From: Sphingomonas caseinilytica
GTDB lineage: Bacteria; Pseudomonadota; Alphaproteobacteria; Sphingomonadales; Sphingomonadaceae
NCBI RefSeq assembly: GCF_023516455.1
Contig: NZ_JAMGBA010000001.1
Coordinates: 1,240,001 to 1,304,000 of the forward strand
Direction of reading: 5' to 3'
Length of the DNA stretch: 64,000 nt
The first letter of the stretch is position 1; the number at the start of each line of letters is the position of its first letter. The notes beneath the pieces are model-generated. The model was not told where the DNA came from. It made no database searches and saw only the letters and a program-made list of their open reading frames with translations. Positions 3,879 to 24,023 of the stretch are shown here, one piece after another. The position numbers and the translations under genes are program-made.

Positions 3879-6826
<2,948 letters not shown>

Positions 6827-6830
<4 letters not shown>

Positions 6831-8595: not shown

Positions 8596-9471
8596 ATGGC
8601 TAAGACCATTCTCATTACCGGTGCCGGCTCGGGCTTCGGCAAGGCCGCGGCAATCGGAATGGCCAGGAACGGCCACAACATCATCGCAACCGTACAGGTA
8701 TCACCCCAGGTCACCCCGCTTCGCGAGGAAGCCGAGGCGCTGGGGCTTTCTGATCGCATTCGCGTCGAGCGGCTCGACCTTACCGATCATTACGACATCA
8801 GCCAGGCGCAGGGCTGGGACTTTGACGTCCTTTGGAACAATGCCGGGCAAGGCGAAGCTGGTCCGGTTTGGGAAATTCCGGTTGAGCTTGTCCGCCGCAA
8901 TTATGAGGTCAACGTCTTCCTGCCGCTCGAGCTGACGCAGGGCGTGGTCCAGCGCTGGATCCGTGAGGGCACCGCCAAGGGCAAGAAAGTGGTCTTCACC
9001 TCATCAATGGGTGGGCTGTTCACGCCGGCCAACTGGGGCACTTATGTCTCGACCAAGCATGCGTTGGAGGCCATCGCCGAAGCGCTCCAGCAGGAATTGG
9101 CCGCCTACGGAATCAAGGTCCAGACGATCAATCCGGGCGCCTATTACACCGGCTATAACGAGACGATGGCGGACAATCCGTTCCGCTGGCTCGACGATGC
9201 CAAAAACTTCACCAAGCGTGCCGAACTGCGCAAGGGTTTCGACGATTTCTTCGCGACGCCGGAGGGCAAGATGGATCCGACCGAAATGATCGACCGGATG
9301 ATCGAGATCGTTCCCGCCGATACCGGCAAGTTCCGCAATGTCGTGCCCAAGGTCATCGAGGAAATGCTGAAAGAGCATCAGCGGCTGGCCTGGGACGTTC
9401 GGATCGAGGGCGATGACGAAAAGGTCGAAGTGGAACTGAAGCCCGACAACCAGCCGGTCCTGACCGTCTAG
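8596..9471 (+). CDS. SDR-family oxidoreductase
   Basis: 291-residue classical short-chain dehydrogenase, NAD(P)-dependent. Cofactor motif TGAGSGFG at 9-16, N-N-A-G at 81-84, catalytic serine in T-S-S-M (136-137), Y150 and K154 in Y-V-S-T-K. The substrate is unknown. AAGGAGGA lies before the ATG. First gene of a three-gene operon (next gene 15 bp on) opposite the AraC regulator, so it is probably induced by a small aldehyde, ketone or alcohol; that last step is inference. Confidence 0.88.
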   Translation: MAKTILITGAGSGFGKAAAIGMARNGHNIIATVQVSPQVTPLREEAEALGLSDRIRVERLDLTDHYDISQAQGWDFDVLWNNAGQGEAGPVWEIPVELVRRNYEVNVFLPLELTQGVVQRWIREGTAKGKKVVFTSSMGGLFTPANWGTYVSTKHALEAIAEALQQELAAYGIKVQTINPGAYYTGYNETMADNPFRWLDDAKNFTKRAELRKGFDDFFATPEGKMDPTEMIDRMIEIVPADTGKFRNVVPKVIEEMLKEHQRLAWDVRIEGDDEKVEVELKPDNQPVLTV

Positions 9472-9486
9472 ACCGAGGAGCGGATC

Positions 9487-9948
9487 ATGGAGATTTCGCA
9501 AGCGCGCTGCGACGCGGTGCTTCTGGCTGCCGAGGCCAAGGCGGCGGAAATCGGCGTGCCGATGAATATCGCCATCCTCGACAGCGGGGCCAATCTAAAG
9601 GCCTTCCTCCGCATGGACGGTGCATTGATCGGATCGATCGACATTGCGCTCAAGAAAGCGAAGACATCGGCGGTCTTCGGCATGAACACCGAGGCTGTCG
9701 GCGAATATTGCAAGCCCGGGGGTTCGTCCCCCGGTCTTGAACAGACCAATGGCGGATTGGTGGTGTTCGCGGGCGGGATTCCGCTCCGGGACGGTCAGGG
9801 CACGCTGATTGGTGCCGTCGGCGTGTCAGGGGGCGCGGTAGCGCAGGATTTCGAGGTCGCCCAGGCGGCGGCGGCGGCGCAGGACGCGCCTCAGGAAGGA
9901 GGCCTGCAATGGGAAGTCGTAGCGGCTGGTCAGCCGCAGCCGGCCTAG
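9487..9948 (+). CDS. GlcG/HbpS family heme-binding-like protein
   Basis: 153-residue protein of the HbpS/GlcG/PduO-C fold: A-E-I-G-V-P-M-N-I-A-I-L-D-S-G-A-N-L-K-A-F near the start, A-L-K-K-A-K-T-S in the middle and G-G-I-P-L-R-D-G-Q-G-T-L-I-G-A-V-G-V-S-G-G near the end are the family signatures. Members bind heme, degrade corrinoids or assist small-molecule catabolism; here the role is unassigned. GAGGAG-like ribosome site before the ATG. It follows the SDR after 15 bp; its last 40 bp overlap the next gene. Confidence 0.83.
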   Translation: MEISQARCDAVLLAAEAKAAEIGVPMNIAILDSGANLKAFLRMDGALIGSIDIALKKAKTSAVFGMNTEAVGEYCKPGGSSPGLEQTNGGLVVFAGGIPLRDGQGTLIGAVGVSGGAVAQDFEVAQAAAAAQDAPQEGGLQWEVVAAGQPQPA

Positions 9949-10421
9949 CGATTGCAGGAGTCCAGCTGATGATTAGCGACGCCGCACTGGCGCAGTCGGT
10001 ACAGGGGATGGAAGACCATAATCGGGCACTGGTTGCGAAAGGCTTCGAGGCCTGGGCCAATGGTACGGGCAGTCCCTACGACCTGCTGGCGGAGGACGCG
10101 AGCTGGACGATCACCGGCAATTCGATGGCGTCCAGGACCTATCCGACCAAGGAAGCCTTCATGAGTGAGGTGATCCGGCCGTTCAATTCACGGATGCAGT
10201 CGCGGCTGATCCCTTCGGTTCGCAAGCTCTATGCGGAGGGTAACACCGTGATCGCCTTCTTCGATGCGCAAGGGACGGCACGCGACGGCAAGCCATATGC
10301 CAATACCTATGCGTGGATCCTTGAAATGAAGGACAGCAAGATCGTCCGCGCGACTGCCTTCTTCGACAGCATTGCATTCGACGATTTCTGGAAGCGGGTA
10401 CCGGAGAAGCCAGCCCCCTAA
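9909..10421 (+). CDS. Secreted SnoaL-like (NTF2 fold) protein
   Basis: 170-residue protein with a likely signal peptide (residues 1-28, ending A-L-A-Q-S) and then a SnoaL/ketosteroid-isomerase-like domain: L-L-A-E-D-A-S-W-T-I-T-G, F-M-S-E-V-I-R-P-F, and G-K-P-Y-A-N-T-Y-A-W-I-L-E-M. Such domains act as isomerases, hydrolases or binding proteins. The start overlaps the HbpS-like gene by 40 bp and is preceded by AGGAGG. Alternatively translation could start at the ATG of MEDHNRAL, giving a cytoplasmic form; the signal-like N terminus argues for the longer one. Confidence 0.75.
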   Translation: MGSRSGWSAAAGLAIAGVQLMISDAALAQSVQGMEDHNRALVAKGFEAWANGTGSPYDLLAEDASWTITGNSMASRTYPTKEAFMSEVIRPFNSRMQSRLIPSVRKLYAEGNTVIAFFDAQGTARDGKPYANTYAWILEMKDSKIVRATAFFDSIAFDDFWKRVPEKPAP

Positions 10422-10434
10422 AGCCGCGTACCCC

Positions 10435-10463
10435 CCGCCGGCGTCTCTCGGTGACGCCGGCGG
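10435..10463. terminator. Bidirectional terminator hairpin
   Basis: Stem of 11 bp (CCGCCGGCGTC / GACGCCGGCGG) with a 7-nt loop, in the 47-bp space between two convergent stop codons. It lacks a clean T-run on either strand. Confidence 0.6.
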
Positions 10464-10468
10464 CCCCC

Positions 10469-11803
10469 TTATTGACCGTAGTCGGCGCGCGGGAACTGCT
10501 TCCCGCGCTTCACGGTCAGGGTGACGCTTCGAAGGTTCTTCACATCCTCGAGCGGGTTCTTCGTCAGCACGACCATGTTGGCGAGCTTTCCGGGCTCGAT
10601 GCTGCCCATCGACTTTTCCTGCCCCGCGGCCTTCGCCCCATTCAAAGTGGCCGCTGCGATCACCGCGGCGGGAGGCATGCCGGCCTGGTCGTGGAGCAGC
10701 TCGAATTCGTCGAACAGCGCGGGCCATGGCTCTTCGCCCGGCGTCTCGCCATCCGTACCCGTCGTAATCGTGACCCCGGAGCGCCAGGCCTGGTTGGTGA
10801 GCTTCCCGACCAGATCGACCGTACAATGTGGCGGCCGCTTCAGTTTCGCCGCGTCTTCGGCTGTCGGATAGACGTTCAAGGTCGCGTCGAGGATGATGCC
10901 GCGACGAGCGATCTCGCCGAACAGCTTCGACATGACCGAATTATCGCTTTTGAACAGCGATGCATCGACCGGAAAGCGATTCTGGTAGGAATCGGGCCGC
11001 TTATCCATCGCCTGGTAGGCGAGGTAGCAAGTGTGGGAGACCGTATCGACTCCAGCGGCGACGACCTCCGCCGGTGTTGCCGGGAAGACCATGCCATGCG
11101 CCCAGACCTTCATCCCCTGCCGGTGCGCTTCGGTGGTGATGGCGGCCACCCTCTCCCCGGGAAGGTTCGCGTAGATCTTGATCGCGGTGGCATAGGTTCC
11201 CTTCGATCGGGCGACGGCCAACGGCATGTCCGTCCCGTCGTCGATCGCCTGCATCCAAGGAACGGCGCCCGGTTCGGCCCCTTTCGCGACCGCGTGCGTA
11301 CGGGGGTCGGTGAAGAAGCTCGGCCCTGCCATAAGGGCGGCATAGTAAATGTCCGGCGAAGCGATCTCACCGACGATCGCGGCTCGGCTGAGGTCCGAGA
11401 CCTGCCGCAGATCATCGGCCATGTCGCGGATGGAGGTGACGCCGCTGTAGACGAGCCGTTCCAGCTGCAGCTCTGCGACGGGGCGATTGGGCGGCGTCGC
11501 CAGATGCTGGTGCGTGTCGATGAAGCCGGGCAGCAGATATTTGCCGCTGAGGTCGACCTGCTGGGCGCCGTTTAGCTGCGCGTCGGTCAGGCTTCGGTCG
11601 GCGATTACCGCGACGATCTTTTCGCCGTCGGTGATGACTGCCGTGTCCGGCCGAGGGGTGGAGCTTTGACCGTCGATCAAAGTCGCATGACGGTAGACGA
11701 TGCGAGTGCCTGTTTCCGGCGGTTTGTACGGCGCGGCGGCCATCATCAGCAGCGATGCGGTCGCCAGTCCCAGCCGAGACAATAGGATTGATCGTCGTCT
11801 CAC
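10469..11803 (-). CDS. Secreted amidohydrolase family protein
   Basis: 444-residue metal-dependent hydrolase of the imidazolonepropionase/prolidase-like amidohydrolase type. A signal peptide (MRRRSILLSRLGLATASLLMM) predicts export to the periplasm. Metal ligands: H98 and H100 in D-T-H-Q-H, a likely bridging lysine in A-I-K-I-Y-A-N, histidines in W-A-H-G-M and V-S-H-T-C, and an aspartate in G-T-D-G. The end E-P-G-K-L-A-N-M-V-V-L is the usual closing segment of the beta-sandwich. Substrate unknown, perhaps a dipeptide or cyclic amide. A related protein is encoded at 52.2 kb. Confidence 0.83.
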   Translation of the reverse strand: MRRRSILLSRLGLATASLLMMAAAPYKPPETGTRIVYRHATLIDGQSSTPRPDTAVITDGEKIVAVIADRSLTDAQLNGAQQVDLSGKYLLPGFIDTHQHLATPPNRPVAELQLERLVYSGVTSIRDMADDLRQVSDLSRAAIVGEIASPDIYYAALMAGPSFFTDPRTHAVAKGAEPGAVPWMQAIDDGTDMPLAVARSKGTYATAIKIYANLPGERVAAITTEAHRQGMKVWAHGMVFPATPAEVVAAGVDTVSHTCYLAYQAMDKRPDSYQNRFPVDASLFKSDNSVMSKLFGEIARRGIILDATLNVYPTAEDAAKLKRPPHCTVDLVGKLTNQAWRSGVTITTGTDGETPGEEPWPALFDEFELLHDQAGMPPAAVIAAATLNGAKAAGQEKSMGSIEPGKLANMVVLTKNPLEDVKNLRSVTLTVKRGKQFPRADYGQ

Positions 11804-13178: not shown

Positions 13179-13333
13179 GGCATTATCCCTGATTTATGTT
13201 AGAAACGCTTACCGGGGGCAGTAGTGCCTTTCGTTCCGGCTGCGAGTCTGGTTACAGGGGGCTCAACGAACCGCGCCCTGATTGCGCCCCATTCGATTGC
13301 GAAAGCGCGCCCCTGATATTAGGGACCTCTAGC

Positions 13334-13579
13334 ATGACCGACCGCGCTAAAACCGAGGCCAAAGTGATGGCCCTGATCGAGCCCTTCAACAAGAAGGGCG
13401 TGGATGTGACCGAAGCAACCCGGTTCGCGCAGGACCTGGAATGGGACAGCCTGACCGTCCTCGATTTCGTCGCCAATATCGAAGATGAATTCGACATCGT
13501 CATCACCATGAACCAGCAGGCGGAGATCGAAACGGTCGGCCAGCTGATCGATGCGGTCGGCAAGCTCAAGGCCGACTAA
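13334..13579 (+). CDS. Acyl carrier protein of the sphingolipid locus
   Basis: 81-residue acyl carrier protein. The 4'-phosphopantetheine attachment serine is S39 in E-W-D-S-L-T-V, with the normal acidic helix II and III around it. It differs clearly from the housekeeping AcpP type (E-L-G-A-D-S-L-D). The stop codon TAA is directly followed by the GTG of serine palmitoyltransferase, so the two are translationally coupled; in Caulobacter a dedicated ACP likewise lies beside spt. The likely role is acyl supply for sphingoid base synthesis. The ATG at 13334 was chosen; the frame is open upstream but without family resemblance. Confidence 0.9.
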   Translation: MTDRAKTEAKVMALIEPFNKKGVDVTEATRFAQDLEWDSLTVLDFVANIEDEFDIVITMNQQAEIETVGQLIDAVGKLKAD

Positions 13580-14782
13580 GTGACCGACCTGTTCTCCAAA
13601 TTCGATCCGCTGATCCAGACCCGCGAGCAGCTGCTTTCGACCGGCATCACCGATCCGTTCGGGCTAGTGATGGAGGAAGTGGTTTCGCCGACCGTCGCCA
13701 TCTGCAACGGGCGCAAGACCATCCTGCTCGGCACCTATAATTATATGGGAATGACCTTCGACCCGGACGTCATCGCGGCCGGCAAGAAAGCGTTGGACGA
13801 GTTCGGGTCCGGTACCACCGGAAGCCGGGTTCTCAACGGCACCTACGCCGGCCACAAGGCGGTCGAGGATGCGCTGAAGGACTTCTACGCCATGGATCAT
13901 GCCATGGTGTTTTCGACCGGATACCAGGCCAATCTAGGCATCATTTCGACGATGGCCGGCAAGGATGATTACATCATCCTCGACATCGACAGCCATGCGT
14001 CGATCTATGACGGCTGTGCGCTCGGCAATGCGCAGATCGTCCCCTTCCGCCACAATGACATCGACGCGCTCGAGAAGCGGCTGAAGCGGCTTCCGCCCGA
14101 AGCCGGCAAGCTGGTCGTCCTGGAAGGCGTCTATTCGATGCTGGGCGACATCGCCCCGCTCAAGGAAATGGTGGCTGTGTGCAAGGCCGCCGGCGCCATG
14201 GTGCTGGTCGACGAGGCGCATTCGATGGGCTTCATCGGCGAACATGGCCGCGGCGTGGCCGAGGCGCAGGGCGTGATCGACGATGTCGATTTCATCATCG
14301 GAACTTTCTCGAAGTCGGTCGGAACGGTCGGCGGCTTCTGCGTTTCCAACCATCCGAAGTTCGAGATATTGCGGCTGGTCTGCCGGCCCTATGTCTTCAC
14401 CGCTTCGCTTCCGCCGAGCGTCGTCGCGACGGCCACGACATCCATCCGCAAGCTGATGCACGGCAAGGCCAAGCGCGACCATCTTTGGGAAAACAGCAAG
14501 AAGCTGCACGCCGGCCTCAAAGCGCTCGGTTTCACGCTTGGTACGGATGAGCCGCAGTCAGCGATCATTGCCGTCATCATGCCCGACCTGGAGCGCGGAG
14601 CGGCGATGTGGGAAGCCCTTCTGCACGAGGGGCTTTACGTCAATTTGGCGCGCCCGCCGGCGACGCCGGCAGGAATGACCCTGCTGCGCTGCTCGCTCTG
14701 CGCGGAACATAGTTCGGAACAGGTCGACGAGATCCTTGGGATGTTCGAAGCGGCAGGTCGGGCGACTGGCTGCATCAGCTGA
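13580..14782 (+). CDS. spt: Serine palmitoyltransferase
   Basis: 400-residue PLP-dependent alpha-oxoamine synthase that condenses serine with a palmitoyl thioester to 3-ketodihydrosphingosine, the first step of sphingolipid synthesis. Key residues are all present: H139 (D-S-H-A-S, stacks on PLP), D211 and H214 (D-E-A-H-S), and the Schiff-base K245 in G-T-F-S-K-S-V-G. They sit 20 positions before the S. paucimobilis enzyme numbering. The GTG start immediately follows the ACP stop. This gene is the strongest sphingomonad marker in the window. Confidence 0.96.
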   Translation: MTDLFSKFDPLIQTREQLLSTGITDPFGLVMEEVVSPTVAICNGRKTILLGTYNYMGMTFDPDVIAAGKKALDEFGSGTTGSRVLNGTYAGHKAVEDALKDFYAMDHAMVFSTGYQANLGIISTMAGKDDYIILDIDSHASIYDGCALGNAQIVPFRHNDIDALEKRLKRLPPEAGKLVVLEGVYSMLGDIAPLKEMVAVCKAAGAMVLVDEAHSMGFIGEHGRGVAEAQGVIDDVDFIIGTFSKSVGTVGGFCVSNHPKFEILRLVCRPYVFTASLPPSVVATATTSIRKLMHGKAKRDHLWENSKKLHAGLKALGFTLGTDEPQSAIIAVIMPDLERGAAMWEALLHEGLYVNLARPPATPAGMTLLRCSLCAEHSSEQVDEILGMFEAAGRATGCIS

Positions 14783-14828
14783 GCTTTTCAGGGTTTCCCC
14801 GGAGGAATCTGCAGTTTAGACTGGCGTC

Positions 14829-16847
14829 ATGACGCCGGGGGAAGAGCAACGGCTGGATTGGCGCCGAGGCAGTGTTGCTGCGGCGATCGCATTCGTTTCG
14901 ACCATGGTCCTGCTGGGCATGGTCGTGCTGGTTGCGATTTCCAACGGTGCCCGCGACCGCGCCCTGCAGGCGGAGCGGCACGCCTATGACGTGACCTTGC
15001 TGACCCGCACGATGGACGCCAGCATCGCACGCGCGGAAGCAGCCGTTGGCCGTTACGCTCTCGATGAAGACGCGAAGACGAGCGGCAGCCGCTATTATGC
15101 GCACTGGCGGCTTGCCGGTCAGCAGCTGAACCAGCTGGAACGTTCGGTTTCCCGCGATCCCGAGCAGCGCAAGCGGGCTGAGGAATTGCGGGTGCTATTC
15201 CAGCAACGCGGCCAGCAGTTCAGCGACGTGGCGCGTTACATCGCCGGCCGACAAAAGACCTACGGCCTTAGCTATTTCTATTCGATCTCCATGAAGCCCA
15301 GCGCGGAGGTCGACGATATCGGCACGCAACTGCGCGGCAAATTATCCGAGATTGCGGATGCGGAACGTGCCGCCCTGTCCGAAAAAATCTCCGAAACCCA
15401 ATTTTTCTCGGCCGAAGCCAATCGGCTGACGGATTATCTGAGCTGGCTCGGGGTCATCGTCGGCCTGTTCGGCATCTTCATGGGCTATGTTGCCGTGCAG
15501 GCCCTCCGCCAGAATGCCGCCGCCCGCAAGGAAGCGGAATCGGAATCCGAACGCGCCCAGGCGCTGGAGCTTGCGGTTCGCGATCGCACGCAGGAGCTGT
15601 GGGAGGCAAACCAGAAGCTGAAAGCCGAGGCGATCGAGCGTCTGGCGGCCGAAGCTCAGCTTCGGCAGGTCCAGAAAATGGAAGCGGTGGGCCAGCTCAC
15701 CGGCGGCATTGCCCACGACTTCAACAATATGCTGGCGGTCGTGGTCGGCGGGATCGATCTGGCCCGCCGCCGCCTGAACGGCCCGCGCCGCGAGATCATG
15801 ACCCACCTGACCAATGCGATGGAAGGCGCCACGCGCGCCGCCGCATTGACCCGCCGCCTGCTGTCGTTCGCCCGGTCCGAGCCGCTGATGCCCGAACGCG
15901 TCGACACGGCGGTGCTGGTTGGCGGAATGAGCGAACTGCTGGACCGCACCCTGGGTGAGCGGATCAAGGTCGTTACCGACCTGTCCGGCGACGCCTGGCC
16001 AGTGTTCGTCGACCCGCACCAGCTTGAAAATGCGATCGTCAACCTGGCGGTCAATGCGCGCGATGCAATGGAAGGGACCGGCAAGCTCAAGATCCGGTCG
16101 CTCAACAAGCATATGAAGGCCAGCGAAGTCGGGGACATCCGCGGCGGCGATTATCTGTGCATCGAGGTGACCGATACCGGTTGCGGCATGACCCCAGAGG
16201 TCAAGGAACGGGCTTTCGAGCCGTTTTTCACCACCAAGGCGGTCGGCAAGGGCACCGGCCTTGGCCTTAGCCAGATATTCGGCTTTGCCCATCAGTCCGG
16301 CGGCGAAGTCGGCATCGAAAGTTCGGTTGGCAAGGGGACAACCGTATCCATTTACCTACCTCGAACCGATGCGGAGCCAAGTAACGTCCGAGCGCATCCC
16401 GCAATGCATGCGAGGACGGAGGAAGACATGACGGTCCCTGGCGCGCGCATTTTGCTTGTCGAGGACGATCCACGGGTCCGCACCGCGACGGTCGGAGCCC
16501 TTGAGGACCTTGGCTATGAACCGGTTGCCTGCGCCAGCGGACCGGAGGCGCTGGCGCTGTTCGACAGCATGGAATTCGACCTCGTCATTTCCGACGTGAT
16601 CATGCCGGAAATGACAGGGCCCGAAATGATACGCGAGCTAAAGTCTCGCCACACTGACATCGCCGTGTTGTTCGTGACGGGCTATGTTGGTGAAGGCGAA
16701 GGCGAGGATTTGATCGGCTACGACCTGCTGCGCAAGCCGTTCACGGTCAGCACCTTGTCGAGCGCTGTCGCGACCGCGCTCGCCCGGACACCGAGGGGCG
16801 CGCCTACCGAATCGCGCCGGAGCGGAGGAGCCGCGGCAGCAGGCTGA
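14829..16847 (+). CDS. Hybrid histidine kinase/response regulator
   Basis: 672-residue membrane sensor. TM1 is about 18-40, a periplasmic helical sensor (CHASE3-like) about 45-200, TM2 about 205-226, then a coiled coil (230-285), the H-box [11 protein letters not shown] with phospho-accepting H296, an HATPase with N-A-R-D-A, D-T-G-C-G-M and G-T-G-L-G-L-S, and a C-terminal receiver with D in [10 protein letters not shown]. No output domain, so it must pass phosphate to another protein. It follows spt after 46 bp. The last 44 bp overlap the convergent Tam41-like gene; the tail there is low complexity. Confidence 0.9.
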
Positions 16848-17727
16848 TCGCCGCGAGCAGCGGGTGCCGTTTCTGCCAGGGCTTCAATTCGATGTCGGTC
16901 CCTGCGTGGCGATTGATCTTCCACGCGATATATTCCGCTCCGCCGGCATAGGTCAGGCTGGCCTTGGCCAGGCGCAAAACCGAGAGGGCCTTACCTTTCC
17001 ATTGCATTCGCCTCCACTGACGCGCCATTCGATCGGCGCGTTTGAACAGAGCGACCTCTCCGTTGGAGCCTACGCCGATCAGTTCGGCGATCCGGGCGAG
17101 AGCGGCCAGTCCAAATCGTTCATAGCGCTCGGCATCTGCATCGACGACTGAAGAAGGTCGCACGCTACGCTCCGCTCGCAACTCAGCGCCGTACGTTAAT
17201 GCAAAGCCACGCTTCCAAATATCGCCGGGACCGAACGGGCTAGTCAGATCCATCATGGGGAGGGTGTATTGGAATAGCGTTGGGGCGGCGTCTTGGATCA
17301 CGTCAACAACACGCTCCAGGGTATCCCGATCATAAGACCATACCAATCGAGACGGCTGAGCGAAGCGCGCCCAAACTGATGTGCTGCGAGCCCTGCCGCT
17401 GACTTCTCGACGAAAGTCAGACTCGCTCAGCACTGCGTATTTTGCCGCCAGCCCGTCATGATGGAATGGGAAGACGTTTGGCGGGATCAGCCGGTTGGCG
17501 ATTGCCAGCCAACGCTTGCCATACGCTGCCTGATAGTCCGACACGATCAGGTAGAAATCGAGCATCAGCCCTTCGAGCTGCTTCTCGCGAAGGCAGCTGC
17601 CGTAGAACAGCACGGCTCGGCTCGCGGCACCGTGACGCGCGGCAATCGCCTCCGCCATGGCTGTGACGCGCGGATCGACCGGCTGGCTGAGCTCGGCATT
17701 CACCAATGTGCGCAATGCGTCGGCCAA
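16804..17727 (-). CDS. Tam41-like nucleotidyltransferase (candidate CDP-lipid synthase)
   Basis: 307-residue soluble or membrane-associated protein. Motifs match the mitochondrial CDP-diacylglycerol synthase Tam41: F-Y-G-S at 41-44, an acidic L-D-F-Y-L-I-V-S-D at 56-64, K-Y-A-V-L-S at 96-101, S-G-R-x-R and W in the next stretch, and the A-E-L-R-A-E-R-S region before D-A-E-R-Y-E-R-F. Tam41 makes CDP-DAG from phosphatidic acid and CTP. Here the gene lies 8 bp after a DAG/ceramide-kinase-like gene, so the substrate may be ceramide-1-phosphate; this is inference. The C terminus is basic and hydrophobic. Its 3' end overlaps the histidine-kinase gene by 44 bp. Confidence 0.62.
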   Translation of the reverse strand: MADALRTLVNAELSQPVDPRVTAMAEAIAARHGAASRAVLFYGSCLREKQLEGLMLDFYLIVSDYQAAYGKRWLAIANRLIPPNVFPFHHDGLAAKYAVLSESDFRREVSGRARSTSVWARFAQPSRLVWSYDRDTLERVVDVIQDAAPTLFQYTLPMMDLTSPFGPGDIWKRGFALTYGAELRAERSVRPSSVVDADAERYERFGLAALARIAELIGVGSNGEVALFKRADRMARQWRRMQWKGKALSVLRLAKASLTYAGGAEYIAWKINRHAGTDIELKPWQKRHPLLAAISLLPRLLRSGAIR

Positions 17728-17735
17728 CGCTGCCC

Positions 17736-18710
17736 TCAGGCCGCGATGCGAACGAACGACAAGGGCGGAGCCGGCTTCAGAAGGATCGGCTTGCCAAGAC
17801 CGGCGCGGAAGGTTTCGCCGTCAAGGATAACGTGGCTGGCTTCACCCTCGATGGCGATCTCGTCCGCTTCCTCGACATGCACGCCGGCCAGCTTGGTGTG
17901 GCCAAGGCGCCCGACCAGGCTGGCCGCGAATGCGCGGACCATTGAAACCGGCTTTTGCTCGACGGCAACGAACTTCAATGGGCCCCGGCCGCCGGAATTC
18001 AGCTCGCTGGATAGAAGCAGCTTTTCAAGCGTCGTCACGAACAGGAAAGCGAAGCGGCCGGTAATCGTCCCCTCACGGCGCACCACGACGCTGAGCGGGC
18101 TCGGTTCCGGCGGAAGGAAGCTGGCACGCATCCCGAACACCTGGCGCATGACGACGGCGACCGCGGTGATGAAATGGCTGATGCTGTTGGGGAGGCCGAG
18201 CGGATAAATGCGCTCCCGGCAATAAAGCATGATGTCGGCGAGCCCCGCTCCGCCGAGGAACATGCCGATGACCGGCTGGATTCCGGTTTCGCCCCCGGAA
18301 AGAGCAATCAGTTCCCGCGCGACGAGGTGAGGAGACAGATCCGCATTGGCGATTTCGATGAGCCGCTCCAGCGCCTGCACCGGATCGCCCTGGGCCCCGA
18401 GATCGAGCGCGATGAGATTGGTCTTGCCGCTGGGAAGCACCGCCACGGGCGGAGCGATGTCGCCGAAGTGGCCGCCATTGAACAATTCGGTCAGCACGGC
18501 CTGGACGGTGCCGTCGCCGCCATTGATCGCGAGCACGCACGGCTCGATCAGGGCGATCGTCTTCATCGCCTCGCCGATCTGGTCGGCGCGCTCCACCTCA
18601 TAGTGGAAAATGTCAGGATGCATTGCGCAGAAGGCGCGGATCCGCGGCAACTGGGCAAGATTGCCCGTCGACTTCGGATTACTGATGAGAGCAATCCGAG
18701 GCCTGTTCAT
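17736..18710 (-). CDS. DAG-kinase-family lipid kinase, candidate ceramide kinase
   Basis: 324-residue enzyme of the diacylglycerol/sphingosine/ceramide kinase fold. N-terminal nucleotide motif N-P-K-S-T-G-N at 11-17, the catalytic N-G-G-D-G-T at 63-68, and L-P-S-G-K-T-N-L-I-A-L-D-L (the family's P-x-G-T-x-N region, here with K-T-N). The Caulobacter ceramide kinase CpgB is of this family and lies in the spt cluster there, so ceramide is the most likely substrate, with DAG or undecaprenol as alternatives. The ATG overlaps the TGA of the DUF2141 gene (ATGA), and the Tam41-like gene starts 8 bp after the stop. Confidence 0.72.
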   Translation of the reverse strand: MNRPRIALISNPKSTGNLAQLPRIRAFCAMHPDIFHYEVERADQIGEAMKTIALIEPCVLAINGGDGTVQAVLTELFNGGHFGDIAPPVAVLPSGKTNLIALDLGAQGDPVQALERLIEIANADLSPHLVARELIALSGGETGIQPVIGMFLGGAGLADIMLYCRERIYPLGLPNSISHFITAVAVVMRQVFGMRASFLPPEPSPLSVVVRREGTITGRFAFLFVTTLEKLLLSSELNSGGRGPLKFVAVEQKPVSMVRAFAASLVGRLGHTKLAGVHVEEADEIAIEGEASHVILDGETFRAGLGKPILLKPAPPLSFVRIAA

Positions 18711-19210
18711 CAGATACCCGCCGGGCTCACGCCGAGCCCCTTGACGTAGAGCAGGGTCACGCCAACCCGTGCCGGACCATTGCCGACCTGGAAGGCAGCC
18801 TTGGAAAATGCTGGCTTGGGATTGAGCAAGCTGACCTTCGGGTTTCGCGAATAGCCGCCGCCATCGTGACGGTCGCGCTCTCCATTGGTGTTGAGGTCGT
18901 GGTGGACTGCCACCGCGTAGCGCCCCGGTGCCGGAACGGGCACGCAGATATCCATCGACTTGGCAGTGACGGGCATCTTGGCCCTGCCGACCCGACCGTC
19001 CTTGGCCAGCCAGCGGTCGCTGCCCGGACCATAGACCGAAACTTTGACCTTGCCCCGCGCCTGCTTGAAGCCGGCGACGTGGACGAGCACCGAGGGTTTG
19101 CCCGCATTGCAGCCAGTCGCCGCAACGGCAGGAGCCGGAATTACAAGAGCAGCGGAGGCCGCAAGGAGCCCTGCTCCACCCGCCACAAGGGGAAACGACG
19201 ATTTGGACAT
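18710..19210 (-). CDS. Secreted DUF2141 protein
   Basis: 166-residue periplasmic protein. Signal peptide about 1-31 (MSKSSFPLVAGGAG then L-L-A-A-S-A-A-L-V-I-P-A-P-A-V-A-A). The DUF2141 core has the P-G-R-Y-A-V-A-V-H-H-D-L-N-T-N-G-E-R-D motif, G-Y-S-R-N-P and a final L-L-Y beta strand. The ATG at 19210 was chosen because it heads the signal peptide. First gene of an operon with the lipid kinase (ATGA overlap) and the Tam41-like gene. It may shield or carry a lipid in the periplasm, but the family's job is unknown. Confidence 0.8.
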   Translation of the reverse strand: MSKSSFPLVAGGAGLLAASAALVIPAPAVAATGCNAGKPSVLVHVAGFKQARGKVKVSVYGPGSDRWLAKDGRVGRAKMPVTAKSMDICVPVPAPGRYAVAVHHDLNTNGERDRHDGGGYSRNPKVSLLNPKPAFSKAAFQVGNGPARVGVTLLYVKGLGVSPAGI

Positions 19211-19381
19211 GATTTTCCCATCCGCTTCGTTATAGGCACAAACGGCGCCGCTCCCTTGCCATTCCCCCCTTATTGGAATCGGCAAGGCTTCGGCGCCCCG
19301 GTTGTCATGTCGGCTCGCTTTGCGGCCAAATCATGGTGCCGCGGAGACGAATTAAGATGTGTTTGGGGCTGGAGCCGTAAG

Positions 19382-20587
19382 TTGGGGTTGGTCGACCGCT
19401 ATCTTGCCCGGAATATCACGGTCCCGCTGGTCGGTACGCTGATCCTCGCGGCGATGCTGCTCGTGCTCGAAAAAATGCTGCGGCTGTTCGATTTCGTGAT
19501 CACGGCGGGCGGGCCGGTCAGTGTCGTCTGGCGGATGCTCGCCAATCTGCTCCCGGAATATTTCTCGCTCGGGATTCCGATCGGGCTGATGCTCGGGATC
19601 CTGCTCGCCTTTCGGAAGCTCGCGCTCAGCTCCGAGCTTGATGCGATGCGGGGGATCGGCATCGGCTACGGCCGCTTGCTTCGGGTTCCCTACATGTTTG
19701 CTGTCGGCCTGATGCTGGTGAACATCGCGATCGTCGGCTGGGTCGATCCCTATGCCCGCTACCGGTACGAAGGGTTGCGGTTCGAACTGAAATCCGGAGC
19801 GCTGGGCGCTTCGATCAAGGTCGGCGAGTTCAACGAATTCGGCAAGCGCATGACGCTCCGCATCGAACGGAGCGAGGACAAGGGGACGCGCCTGCTCGGC
19901 ATCTTCACCGCCCTCGACGACAAGGCCGGGACGAAGGTCGCGGCGACCGCGGCCGAGGGGCAGTTCCTGTCCACGGACGATCCCGACACGATCATCTTCC
20001 GGTTGAAGAAGGGCCGGCTGGTTCAGGACAATCCGTCTTTCGCGACCCCGAGGACGCTGGCGTTCGAAAGTTACGACCTTCCGATCAACCTTCCGGCCAT
20101 CGATCCCTTCCGCGGCCGCGGCAATGAGGAGAAGGAACTGATCCTGCCGGAGCTGGTCAGCAGGGCCTATGGCGGAACCGCTCAAACCCCCAAGGATGAG
20201 CGCTCGGCGCGGGCCAATCTTCACTTCAGGCTCGTCGAAGTGGTGATGATGATGATGCTGCCGCTGCTGGCCATCGCGCTTGCGGTGCCGCCCAAGCGAA
20301 GCACTTCGTCGCTCGGCATTTTCATCGGCATTGTGATGGTCGTGACCTACCACAAGATAAACCAGTACGCGGAAAGCGCCGGATCGCAGGGACGGCTTCA
20401 GCCGGAACTGGCGCTGTGGCTGCCGTTCCTGGCGTTCGTCGCGCTGATCCTGTGGATGTATCACGTCATCGCGCACCGCCCCGGAGGCCAGCCGATCGGC
20501 GCACTGGAAGCCGCGTTCGCGAAGATCGGCAAGCTTGTCCGCAAGGCGCTTCCCAAATCGCGTTTCCAACGAATTGAGGCGGCATGA
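19382..20587 (+). CDS. lptF: LPS export ABC permease LptF
   Basis: 401-residue inner-membrane permease, half of the LptB2FG extractor. Three N-terminal TM helices, a periplasmic beta-jellyroll (about 120-290) and three C-terminal TM helices. The start is a TTG (L-G-L-V-D-R-Y-L-A-R-N-I) with GGAG 7 nt upstream; the frame is open much further upstream but overlaps another gene. The stop overlaps the lptG start by 4 bp. Many sphingomonads lack LPS and carry glycosphingolipids instead, so the cargo here may be a sphingolipid (inference). Confidence 0.88.
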   Translation: MGLVDRYLARNITVPLVGTLILAAMLLVLEKMLRLFDFVITAGGPVSVVWRMLANLLPEYFSLGIPIGLMLGILLAFRKLALSSELDAMRGIGIGYGRLLRVPYMFAVGLMLVNIAIVGWVDPYARYRYEGLRFELKSGALGASIKVGEFNEFGKRMTLRIERSEDKGTRLLGIFTALDDKAGTKVAATAAEGQFLSTDDPDTIIFRLKKGRLVQDNPSFATPRTLAFESYDLPINLPAIDPFRGRGNEEKELILPELVSRAYGGTAQTPKDERSARANLHFRLVEVVMMMMLPLLAIALAVPPKRSTSSLGIFIGIVMVVTYHKINQYAESAGSQGRLQPELALWLPFLAFVALILWMYHVIAHRPGGQPIGALEAAFAKIGKLVRKALPKSRFQRIEAA

Positions 20588-21681
20588 TCAACCTTGACTT
20601 CATGCCCTCGCGCCAGCTGGCGATCTACGCGGCCAGGCTGTTCCTGACGCGAAGCCTCGCGGTTCTGATCATGCTGGTCATGGTGCTGATGATGCTCGAC
20701 CTGCTTGGCGAGTCAGGCAAAATCCTGAAGGTTGATGGCAATGGCGAGGCCGAGCTTTGGCGATATGTGTCGCTTCGCGTGCCCATGCTCATCTCCCGCT
20801 TCCTCCCCTTCTCGGTTTTGCTCGGCGCGCTCATCGCCTTCGTCGGCCTCAACCAGAACAGCGAAGTGGTTGCGATGAAGGCGTCGGGCTTGTCGGCGCA
20901 CCAGATCCTGGCCCCGATGGTCGTCGCCAGTTTCGGCGTCGCTGTGCTGCTCTTCGCGTTCAACGAGCTGGTCGTGGTAAAGTCCGCCCGGACGGTCGCG
21001 GCATGGACCGATGCGGATTATGAGCCGATCCCGCCGGACAGCGGCATCCTGTCGAACGTCTGGATCCGCGACGGGAACGACCTGGTTCATGCCAAGCTGG
21101 TCGGTGGCCGCGGTCCGACGACCAAGCTTCGCGGCGTGACCATGTATGATCGCGAAGGCGGCGCAATCACCCGCGTCGTCGAGGCCGAGCGCGCCGAGCA
21201 AGTTGCCGGAGGCTGGCAGCTCGACAATGTGCGGACCTACGACGCGCGAATGAACGTCGTGATGCGCGCGCCTTCGATGACCGCGTTGGCAGGTGTCGAA
21301 CCGTCGCGCTTTACGCTCGCCCGGGTCGATCCCAATGTGCGCGACTTCATGGCGCTGGGCGATGCGATCGATGACCTGGCGGCGGCAGGGCGACCGACCG
21401 AGGAAGCGCGCACCGGCTGGTGGCACAAGATCAGCGGACCGTTGTCGACGATGCTGATGCCGCTGCTAGCGGCTACCGCCGCCTTCGGTCTCGCGCGTTC
21501 GGGCAAGGTCCTGCTTCGAGCGACGATCGGCATGGCGCTGGGCTTTGCCTATTTCGTCGCCGACAATTTCAGCCTGGCTCTAGGCAATTACGGCGCCTAC
21601 CCGCCGTTCCTCGCGGCCTGGGCGCCTTTCTTCCTGTTCTTGCTGATCGGCGAATTCGTCCTCATCCGCCAGGAAGAGTAG
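20584..21681 (+). CDS. lptG: LPS export ABC permease LptG
   Basis: 365-residue partner of LptF: TM helices about 16-40, 63-82 and 99-120, a periplasmic jellyroll (about 125-270) and three C-terminal helices (S-T-M-L-M-P-L-L-A-A, then G-M-A-L-G-F-A-Y-F-V-A-D-N-F and a final F-F-L-F-L-L-I-G-E). ATGA overlap with lptF. LptB, LptC and LptA are not in the window. It converges on the desaturase gene, with 6 bp between stops. Confidence 0.9.
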   Translation: MINLDFMPSRQLAIYAARLFLTRSLAVLIMLVMVLMMLDLLGESGKILKVDGNGEAELWRYVSLRVPMLISRFLPFSVLLGALIAFVGLNQNSEVVAMKASGLSAHQILAPMVVASFGVAVLLFAFNELVVVKSARTVAAWTDADYEPIPPDSGILSNVWIRDGNDLVHAKLVGGRGPTTKLRGVTMYDREGGAITRVVEAERAEQVAGGWQLDNVRTYDARMNVVMRAPSMTALAGVEPSRFTLARVDPNVRDFMALGDAIDDLAAAGRPTEEARTGWWHKISGPLSTMLMPLLAATAAFGLARSGKVLLRATIGMALGFAYFVADNFSLALGNYGAYPPFLAAWAPFFLFLLIGEFVLIRQEE

Positions 21682-21687
21682 AAAGCG

Positions 21688-22782
21688 TTAGCGGGGCCGC
21701 ATCGTGCTCGATGCAAGCCGCGCCACCAGCGGCGACAGGCCGCGATGGTTGGATTCGAAATAGATTGAATCGGACGCCAGTTCGCGGACCAGGCGGCGGT
21801 GAGCCTCGCCCAGATTGTGATAGGGCACGCCCGGCAGCAGGTGATGCAGCGCATGGTAGCGAAGGCCAACCGGGGCCCACAGCGCCGGCAAGGTTCCCGG
21901 CGGCGGCACGTTGACGCTGTCCAGATATTGGGCGGTCACGCTCATCGGCTCGCCGTCATTCTCCCACAGATGCGCGACCAGGGTCCGCACCTGGTTCAGG
22001 AACATGGCGCCCGAAATGATGACGAGAGTGATGGCGAAGTCGCGCAAGGGGATGATGCCGGTTGCGACGAGGGCAATCAGAGCGATGGCCCACATGCTGG
22101 CGGCGGCTTCCTGCAATCCCCAGTCCCGGGCAAACTTGCCTTCAGGGTGCTTGCGGTGGAAGCGCGGATTGATCTGCAGGCCTGAATAGCGGCCGACAAC
22201 GATTTCCCTGAGACCTGGCAACAGCATCGACAATGGCCCAAGGACGGCGAAGCGGAACAGCAGGGCAATGGGTGCCAGCAACGCGGCAACCAGGAACAGC
22301 GGCAAGGTCCAGGGCCTCATTAGTGCCAACGGCAGATATTCGGGATCGTTGGCCGTGCCGTAGTAGGTCTTGGCGTGGTGCTGATTATGTATGCCCTCAT
22401 ACATGAACGACGGAGCCAGCAGCGGAATGCCGATAATGAGGTTCCAAACCAGCCGGAACCCCGGAACCGCATTGGGCTTCATGTGCGTCAGCTCGTGAAT
22501 GAAGCTGCCTGCGCGATAAAGAGCTAGCACCGATACGAGCCCAGCCGCGATTCCAGCGGCCGTCGAACCGGCGTTGATGGCGAGGAACAGCGCCGCATAA
22601 CCTAGCAGCGCCGAGCCAAGCATGTCGGCCCAGTAAATGGCGGCTCTCGGCGCATTCAGGTCGCGCGTCAGGTTGGCGGCGGCCTTCAGCATCGCATTGT
22701 CGTCCTTGCGCGGAGCGCGCGCGGCATGGTCCGCGGCAGGTGCCGCGCCGGTTCCGCGATTCAAGGTCACTGCTTTGTTCAT
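21688..22782 (-). CDS. Membrane fatty-acid desaturase
   Basis: 364-residue integral-membrane di-iron enzyme. Three histidine boxes: H-E-L-T-H, H-N-Q-H-H-A-K-T-Y and H-A-L-H-H-L-L-P-G-V-P-Y-H, with paired hydrophobic helices between them. It introduces a double bond or a hydroxyl group into an acyl chain; which lipid is unknown. ATG at 22782 (MNKAVTLNRG). It is divergent, 101 bp away, from the GNAT-fold protein thought to acylate sphingoid bases, so a sphingolipid chain is a reasonable candidate substrate. Confidence 0.85.
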   Translation of the reverse strand: MNKAVTLNRGTGAAPAADHAARAPRKDDNAMLKAAANLTRDLNAPRAAIYWADMLGSALLGYAALFLAINAGSTAAGIAAGLVSVLALYRAGSFIHELTHMKPNAVPGFRLVWNLIIGIPLLAPSFMYEGIHNQHHAKTYYGTANDPEYLPLALMRPWTLPLFLVAALLAPIALLFRFAVLGPLSMLLPGLREIVVGRYSGLQINPRFHRKHPEGKFARDWGLQEAAASMWAIALIALVATGIIPLRDFAITLVIISGAMFLNQVRTLVAHLWENDGEPMSVTAQYLDSVNVPPPGTLPALWAPVGLRYHALHHLLPGVPYHNLGEAHRRLVRELASDSIYFESNHRGLSPLVARLASSTMRPR

Positions 22783-22883
22783 GGTCCTAGGTGCCGATTG
22801 CAGGAGATAGTGGCACCATCGTGGCGGTTCCAGGTCAGTACGATATCGGTTGCTTGTCCGCCGCTTGGCTGCAACCAAGCGGC

Positions 22884-24023
22884 ATGAGCGGTGAAATCAG
22901 CATCAAGCGAGTGAATTCGAAGGCCGAGCGCAACGCGTTCGTCGACTTTGCGTGGGAGATTTATGCGTCGGATCCCCACTGGGTCCCGCCGCTGAAAGAT
23001 GAGGTCCATGGCCTGATCGATCCGAAGCGGAACCCCTGGTTCGGTCATGGATTCGCGGAATTCTGGCTGGCGGAACGCGATGGCAAGGTCGTCGGCCGCA
23101 TCAGCGCCCAGGTCGATGAACTGGTACAGGAGCATATGTCGCCGGGTACCGGCCAGTGGGGCATGTTCGAGGCCAAGGACGATGCGGTTGCCGCGGCACT
23201 GATCAAGACCGCCGAGGAGTGGCTGCGCGAACAGCGAATGACGCGGGCGCTCGGCCCTATTTCCATTTCCATCTGGGATGAGCCGGGCCTGCTGATCCAG
23301 GGCTTCGGCGAACCGCCGATGGTGATGATGGGTCACCATCGTCCCGAATATCGCGGGTGGATCGAGGGTGCGGGCTACGACAAGGCCAAGGACCTCTTCA
23401 CCTTCGAGCTCGACATCAGGATCGACATGATCCCGGTGATCGACCGCCTGATCAAGTCGGGCGAGAAGAATCCGAGGATCCGTATCCGCAACGTCGACAA
23501 GTCCAAGTTCGACCAGGAAGCGGCGATCATCCTCGATATCTTGAACGATGCATGGTCGGACAATTGGGGCTTCGTGCCGCTGACCGACGATGAGATCGCC
23601 TATGCCGGCAAGAAGCTGAAACCGATCATCGTCGAGGATCTGGTCAAGATCGCCGAGGTCGATGGCGAGCCGGTCGCCTTCATGATCACCATTCCGGACA
23701 TGAACGAGATGATCCGGGACTTGGACGGCAAGCTCTTCCCGTTCGGCTGGGCGAAACTGCTGTGGCGCCTGCACAAGGTGGCGACCCGCCGGGTGCGCGT
23801 GCCGCTGATGGGCGTCCGCAAGTCGATGCAGGGCGGACGGTTGGCCAGCCAGTTGGCCTTCATGCTGATCGAATTCACCCGTCGCGTGTGCGTGAACAAA
23901 TATGGCATCCACGTCGGCGAGTTCGGCTGGGTACTGGAAGACAATCAGGGAATGATGTCGATCGCGCAGCTGCCCGGCGCGAACATCAACCACACCTATC
24001 GGATATACGAACGAGCTCTTTAG
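22884..24023 (+). CDS. Long GNAT-fold acyltransferase, candidate bacterial ceramide synthase
   Basis: 379-residue protein beginning MSGEISIKRVNSKAER. Motifs include S-D-P-H-W-V-P-P-L, V-V-G-R-I-S-A-Q-V-D, G-Q-W-G-M-F-E, S-I-W-D-E-P-G-L-L-I-Q-G-F, M-M-G-H-H-R-P-E-Y, and a C-terminal L-E-D-N-Q-G-M. This is a conserved bacterial family with two GNAT-like halves, often called N-acetyltransferase or, wrongly, dATP pyrophosphohydrolase. The bacterial ceramide synthase described from Caulobacter is a GNAT-type acyltransferase; I think this is that family, but I could not confirm the match. The neighbourhood (spt, lipid kinase, desaturase) fits. Overlaps the xthA stop by 4 bp. Confidence 0.6.
   Translation: MSGEISIKRVNSKAERNAFVDFAWEIYASDPHWVPPLKDEVHGLIDPKRNPWFGHGFAEFWLAERDGKVVGRISAQVDELVQEHMSPGTGQWGMFEAKDDAVAAALIKTAEEWLREQRMTRALGPISISIWDEPGLLIQGFGEPPMVMMGHHRPEYRGWIEGAGYDKAKDLFTFELDIRIDMIPVIDRLIKSGEKNPRIRIRNVDKSKFDQEAAIILDILNDAWSDNWGFVPLTDDEIAYAGKKLKPIIVEDLVKIAEVDGEPVAFMITIPDMNEMIRDLDGKLFPFGWAKLLWRLHKVATRRVRVPLMGVRKSMQGGRLASQLAFMLIEFTRRVCVNKYGIHVGEFGWVLEDNQGMMSIAQLPGANINHTYRIYERAL

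Follow-up and report, generated by a model that had tools for sequence, protein, structure and literature searches.

A Predicted Tam41-Fold Protein of the Sphingolipid Locus of Sphingomonas caseinilytica as a Candidate CDP-Ceramide Synthase

Gene Organization of the Locus

The window analysed here is a stretch of 64,000 nucleotides within the 2.78 Mb genome of Sphingomonas caseinilytica (G000:C1:1240001-1304000), and the gene of interest in it encodes a 307-aa protein that lies among sphingolipid genes. A gene for the acyl carrier protein (ACP) of the ceramide pathway (13334-13579, plus strand; 81 aa from this start, the list of open reading frames (ORFs) starting the frame at 13196) and spt for serine palmitoyltransferase (13580-14782, plus strand; 400 aa; NCBIfam NF047603, 820.6 bits vs. 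a cut-off of 670) face an operon on the minus strand. In this operon, a cpgB-type ceramide kinase gene (17736-18710; 324 aa; DAGK_cat PF00781 at E 1.3e-13, with GGDGT at residue 64) is followed by the gene in question (16804-17727, TTG start), which is of the cpgC type and is predicted to encode a Tam41-fold nucleotidyltransferase, the proposed CTP:ceramide-1-phosphate cytidylyltransferase (CTP, cytidine triphosphate). An earlier examination of the DNA, called the sequence-only reading below, had described this arrangement, and all of its ORFs are present. The 8-base gap between the kinase stop and the cpgC-type start is exactly as it had been given, and so are the motifs FYGS, LDFYLIVSD and KYAVLS at residues 41, 56 and 96 of the 307-aa protein. 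The assignment of the upstream enzyme to the diacylglycerol (DAG)/ceramide kinase family was confirmed by the DAGK_cat match and GGDGT. In the space separating spt from the operon lies a gene for a hybrid histidine kinase (14829-16847, plus strand; 672 aa; HisKA, HATPase_c and receiver domains, weak CHASE3), which shares 44 bp with the 3' end of the cpgC-type gene.

The closest described system is that of Caulobacter, in which CC_1163 (acp), CC_1162 (spt), CC_1161, CC_1160 (kinase) and CC_1159 are consecutive genes, with largely good orthologues in Sphingomonas wittichii according to PMC11324152. Because the gene order of the window fits CC_1163-CC_1160 and these reported orthologues, the 307-aa protein is named here as the probable CpgC of S. 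caseinilytica, an orthology that rests on gene content and order. CpgC of Caulobacter crescentus (CC_1161/CCNA_01219) likewise adjoins a CpgB-type kinase gene and acp-spt, as judged by locus-tag order. In several lineages where acp-spt faces cpgC-cpgB, a CDP-alcohol transferase gene (CDP, cytidine diphosphate) adjoins cpgB, an arrangement that also fits the Caulobacter gene order. The two loci differ in two respects: the CpgA-like genes of S. caseinilytica lie outside the operon, elsewhere in the genome, and its locus has the histidine kinase gene as an insertion. Ceramide kinase activity of Caulobacter CpgB has been demonstrated in vitro (PMC10331486). The window kinase shares the DAGK_cat domain and GGDGT of this enzyme, and a search of it for CxxxCxxC, the motif of eukaryotic ceramide kinases (PMC10331486), found none. 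GGDGT is invariant in the kinase alignment (A3), in which the window kinase is 23-30% identical to 12 rows from distant lineages, Caulobacter CpgB itself not being among the sequences compared. A nearby relative of the locus is found in Sphingomonas edaphi (L057), whose spt and kinase products are 93% and 86% identical to the window proteins.

Relationship to Tam41

Single-sequence searches with the 307-aa protein gave no Pfam or NCBIfam match at E 0.001. The best Pfam trace, DUF6232, was below the cut-off (E 0.07), and a sequence search of the PDB returned nothing better than E 0.58. The protein has at least 8000 relatives at E 0.001; the named relatives among the matches listed are hypothetical proteins, and two Dongia relatives in UniRef carry the name phosphatidate cytidylyltransferase. 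For an alignment (A1), the window protein was combined with 30 relatives, down to 28% identity, with the exclusion of L024, L026, L027 and L028 as fragments, weak match or duplicate. The 31 sequences have 20 invariant columns. Since Y42, G43, D57 and K96 are invariant and S44 is present in 97%, the motif conservation exceeds chance, as far as the aligned sequences indicate.

The predicted fold of the 307-aa protein matches both domains of Tam41, namely the nucleotidyltransferase domain and the helical (winged-helix) domain that follows it. The resemblance thus extends over the whole fold of Tam41/Mmp37, the CDP-DAG synthase of mitochondria and Firmicutes (PDB 6ig2, 6ig4, 7ecd), and the Tam41-like fold claimed in the sequence-only reading finds support here, with nothing that refutes it. 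The three PDB entries matched are titled CTP complexes, CDP-DAG synthases or phosphatidate cytidylyltransferases. On an alignment that scores weakly, the residues YGS...D, K, R and YxxExR...E, as well as a basic C-terminus, appear to occur in both proteins, and nine of the 24 near-invariant positions are common with Tam41. The differences are also clear: identity is 15-17%, ARFxQP stands where Tam41 has GRFQKP, the gene is linked to ceramide genes, and the Tam41 family model PF09139 gives no match. This model is matched by two of the 31 members of A1, in only one of them (L015) above the cut-off. Because the window protein has no match and a single A1 member exceeds the cut-off, the protein is best filed as a probable Tam41-fold relative outside PF09139 as drawn. 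Among 192 genomes of the class, PF09139 had one match, below the cut-off, and the gene matched was itself of the cpgC type (L019/L055); this search missed L015 of genome G105, so true matches get lost in it. Among 299 genomes of the phylum, one match was also below the cut-off (L056).

The bacterial CDP-DAG synthase CdsA (PF01148) catalyses the same kind of reaction as that proposed for CpgC. It differs in that it is embedded in the membrane as an integral protein and is homologous to Tam41 neither in sequence nor in structure (PMC7018664). No PF01148 match to the 307-aa protein was listed at E up to 10, a range in which the HMMER filters drop most matches above about 0.1.

Co-occurrence with spt and Ceramide Kinase

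The distribution of the gene was followed in a class sample of 192 alphaproteobacterial genomes with one query sequence at E 0.001. After G168 (20 bits over 46 residues) had been dropped as spurious from 26 matches, the cpgC-type gene was counted in 25/192 genomes. For spt, 173 genomes match at E 0.001 and three pass the NCBIfam cut-off; most of the 173 are taken to be other members of the enzyme superfamily. The line for true spt was drawn, after the data had been seen, at the gap between 439.9 bits and the next genome at 262.7, which leaves 29/192 genomes at or above 439.9 bits. All 25 genomes with the cpgC-type gene are within these 29 (Fisher p 1.6e-27, a value that shared ancestry makes too small), and the 163 genomes without true spt have no cpgC-type match apart from the discarded G168. 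The kinase profile A3 splits the 29 spt genomes in the same way: at least 209 bits are reached in 25/25 with the cpgC-type gene (in pieces over contigs for G022 and G170) and at most 40.5 bits in the four without it. Rows of A3 came from 13 of the 25 genomes, so that 12 are independent of the profile. The four genomes with spt and neither a cpgC-type nor a good kinase match are G010 and G125, which belong to the same family, G055 and G064; their sphingolipids may be confined to those made independently of this phosphate route.

A survey of the best 80 loci, 76 of them titled as sphingomonads and with bit-score lines chosen by the analyst, gave a similar picture. The kinase gene is directly upstream of the cpgC-type gene in 58 loci; of the 22 genomes in which the two are not neighbours, 21 have the kinase gene elsewhere. 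The exception is the MAG (metagenome-assembled genome) G485 (L118), whose best kinase match is 24.6 bits. About 1 kb separates the start of its contig from the cpgC-type gene, and the assembly is perhaps incomplete. The fetched stretch contains spt in 69/80 loci, and some of the remaining loci are cut short by contig edges.

In these samples, with the exception of G485, genomes retain the cpgC-type gene only if they can also make ceramide and ceramide-1-phosphate. This co-occurrence fits an enzyme that consumes ceramide-1-phosphate and not a general CDP-DAG synthase. The tie to spt and cpgB-like genes that the sequence-only reading had expected is borne out, as all 25 carriers have both spt and the kinase. 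Its expectation that the gene lies near spt in other sphingomonads holds for most of the surveyed loci, while G010 and G125, of the same family, have spt and lack both the gene and the kinase.

Proposed Mechanism

A need for CpgC in the formation of ceramide phosphoglycerate (CPG) is shown for Caulobacter only. According to PMC11324152, CC_1161 mutants lose CPG and CPG2, CC_1159/CC_1160 double mutants lose both lipids as well, and CC_1160 alone restores CPG to the double mutants. The same paper describes CpgA, which has a CDP-alcohol transferase domain, as needed only for the second head-group step. For this second head group, CDP-glycerate made by CpgD is the hypothesised donor (PMC12275187). 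Olea-Ozuna et al. (2024, PMC11324152) noted an InterPro domain in CC_1161 that suggests a CDP-DAG synthase, wrote that it might form an NDP-activated ceramide (NDP, nucleoside diphosphate), and left the addition of glycerate to a so-far unknown enzyme. The mechanism of CpgC is still shown as unidentified in the CpgD papers of 2025 and 2026 (PMC12275187, PMC13228409). Activated ceramide has thus been published before as a conjecture, and the idea of the sequence-only reading may be independent but is not the first. The string “CDP-ceramide” had no match in the literature searched, subscription journals being mostly outside the search, and Tam41 is not named in the accessible text of PMC11324152 or of the other papers checked for it. 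The present analysis adds a predicted fold that matches Tam41 over both domains, the residues in common, the link to the kinase and a small census of transferases.

The gene pair is real, well conserved and part of a known pathway, and a function in this pathway is likely. The best explanation, favoured with some reserve, is that CpgC probably moves CMP (cytidine monophosphate) from CTP onto ceramide-1-phosphate to give CDP-ceramide. Because of the Tam41 fold, this transfer is the simplest chemistry. CpgC would be a soluble or peripheral nucleotidyltransferase with its CTP site between the nucleotidyltransferase domain and the helical one, and it would release pyrophosphate together with CDP-ceramide. 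A second enzyme would then swap CMP for glycerate or phosphoglycerate, giving an anionic head group, and the finished lipid would reach the outer membrane, perhaps through the neighbouring LptF/LptG pair. The main elements of the sequence-only reading, a Tam41-like fold and a tie to sphingolipid genes, stand; its phosphoglycerol-type head group does not, as the head group in Caulobacter is phosphoglycerate (PMC11324152). An even chance may be given to the wider view that the CpgC proteins form a branch sister to Tam41 in which the lipid has switched from phosphatidic acid to ceramide-1-phosphate. They would be the first CDP-ceramide synthases, and CDP-ceramide would be used by shared or further transferases, so that lineages could vary their head groups.

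Several observations weigh against CDP-ceramide formation by CpgC. Profile-profile comparison with Tam41 is not significant alone and was weak in 3/3 runs (Prob 1-3%, E 0.013-0.047; reversed decoys gave E 0.81 and 1), and the window protein by itself matches no Tam41 model in the PF09139 search. The control Caulobacter vibrioides also had no match in the PF09139 searches, which missed L015 as well. CpgC orthology was drawn from gene content and order, and neither nucleotide nor lipid specificity can be read from the sequence of the 307-aa protein. No assay of the CDP-ceramide step was found in the literature searched.

The main weakness is the transferase that would use CDP-ceramide. CpgA-like proteins, defined as those scoring more than 120 bits to a single query (L033), occur in 16/192 genomes, every one of them a carrier of the cpgC-type gene; 9/25 genomes with the gene have no such match. 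In Caulobacter, CpgA is dispensable for the first head group (PMC11324152). The PF01066 census covered 20 genomes (nine without CpgA, three with it, four with spt and no cpgC-type gene, four without spt). In it, G021, G132, G133 and G140 combine the cpgC-type gene and the kinase with just two PF01066 proteins per genome, while the eight genomes without the cpgC-type gene have 2 to 5. The nine genomes without a CpgA-like match, together with the two-PF01066 genomes, speak against a dedicated CDP-alcohol transferase that travels with the cpgC-type gene. No dedicated enzyme of this type using CDP-ceramide was found, the search having been confined to CDP-alcohol transferases, without PLD-type (phospholipase D-type) and other transferases. 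For the same reasons, in genomes with few transferases the user of CDP-ceramide would have to be a housekeeping enzyme (PgsA, PssA), an enzyme of another fold, or CpgC itself performing both half-reactions. It is because of this gap that confidence in CDP-ceramide as the product is not set higher.

The genome of S. caseinilytica has six CDP-alcohol transferase proteins, two of which are CpgA-like. One is encoded in L140 (G000:C2:688000-707999), away from the window, where a c6-family nucleotidyltransferase gene, which may correspond to CpgD or CC_1153, and the CpgA-like gene are immediate neighbours (9140-11145, minus strand) and an aasR-like gene is within the same 20 kb. The other (L139, G000:C1:1065000-1084999; 9001-10050, minus strand) stands on a long branch in the tree; L035 (Dongia-type) and L049 have second CpgA-like copies as well. 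A second copy as the missing enzyme was rejected: in the 20-row tree, 8/16 forks are open and the C1 copy is the long branch.

Alternative Explanations

Among the alternatives, the most serious, though unlikely, is that CpgC makes ceramide phosphoglycerate directly. Activation and attack by glycerate would then occur in one active site, with no free CDP-ceramide and no second enzyme. According to PMC11324152 and PMC12275187, Zik et al. proposed that CpgC converts ceramide phosphate into CPG, and the contents of L038 and L053 agree with this: their conserved genes are the ceramide genes, the kinase, CpgC, DUF2141, a hydroxylase-type gene, Polysacc_synt (flippase-like) and LptF/G, and among the genomes carrying these clusters, two CDP-alcohol transferase proteins were counted in G140 and three in G031. 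Such a reaction is nevertheless described as energetically not very favourable by Olea-Ozuna et al. (PMC11324152). Transferases of other folds or housekeeping enzymes could still serve the second step. To our knowledge, the chemistry of Tam41 is nucleotidyl transfer only.

A different nucleotide or a different phosphorylated sphingolipid as the substrate of CpgC, with an NDP-lipid other than CDP-ceramide as the product, is rather improbable. The match to Tam41 covers only the fold and core residues, and Olea-Ozuna et al. write NDP, not CDP (PMC11324152); the titles of the three Tam41 entries point instead to cytidine nucleotides. A plain second CDP-DAG synthase acting on phosphatidic acid and placed in the cluster by happenstance, as the known substrate of the Tam41 fold and the names of the two Dongia relatives might suggest, is very improbable because every genome of the class sample that has the gene also has spt and the ceramide kinase, and a CdsA match is present (one PF01148 match, elsewhere in the S. 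caseinilytica genome); moreover, the Caulobacter mutant loses CPG and CPG2 (PMC11324152).

Neighbouring Genes

The genes around the operon recur at related loci. A gene for a DUF2141 protein (18710-19285, minus strand; PF09912 at E 2e-20; start codon uncertain) is directly upstream of the kinase gene, with a match in 45/80 loci and also in the distant clusters L038, L042, L053 and L050. Divergent from the kinase operon is an LptF/LptG pair (19388-21681), with matches in 57 and 56 of the 80 loci, respectively. It consists of an lptF-type permease gene (19388-20587, plus strand; PF03739, TIGR04407) and an lptG-type permease gene (20584-21681, plus strand; PF03739, TIGR04408). The lptF-type ORF is listed from 18866, and several in-frame codons close to the domain, 19388 (TTG) among them, could serve as the start, so its true position is uncertain. 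LptF/LptG genes are present in most of the 20 distant clusters and may export the sphingolipid. The histidine kinase has a match in 54/80 loci, one of them not adjacent, which suggests regulation of the sphingolipid genes.

Further along, a fatty acid desaturase-family gene (21688-22878, minus strand), a relative of which lies between spt and cpgC in L046, adjoins a cerS-type gene (22791-24023, plus strand) for a GNAT-fold protein (PF00583), a probable bacterial ceramide synthase with 46.6% identity to the conserved cluster gene c8. A cerR-type epimerase/dehydrogenase gene (5913-6830, plus strand; PF01370) has 39.7% identity to the conserved cluster gene c3. Both the cerS-type and cerR-type names were assigned by gene order and not by comparison with cerS or cerR sequences. 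In L043 and L044, the aasR-like frame reaches 1943 and 2158 aa, respectively, which may reflect fusion to a further enzyme; these two stretches yielded no separate cerR.

Significance

The step after ceramide-1-phosphate is an open step in the synthesis of anionic sphingolipids, which help Caulobacter to live without lipopolysaccharide and are thought to be a target of polymyxin. The assignment of a Tam41 fold names a likely nucleotide (CTP), a likely product (CDP-ceramide) and candidate residues for this step. If it is true, CDP-ceramide would be a natural metabolite, and enzymes of the Tam41 type would gain a second lipid substrate. The search for the transferase that follows would become sharper, and bacteria would have a sphingolipid counterpart of the CDP-DAG pathway.

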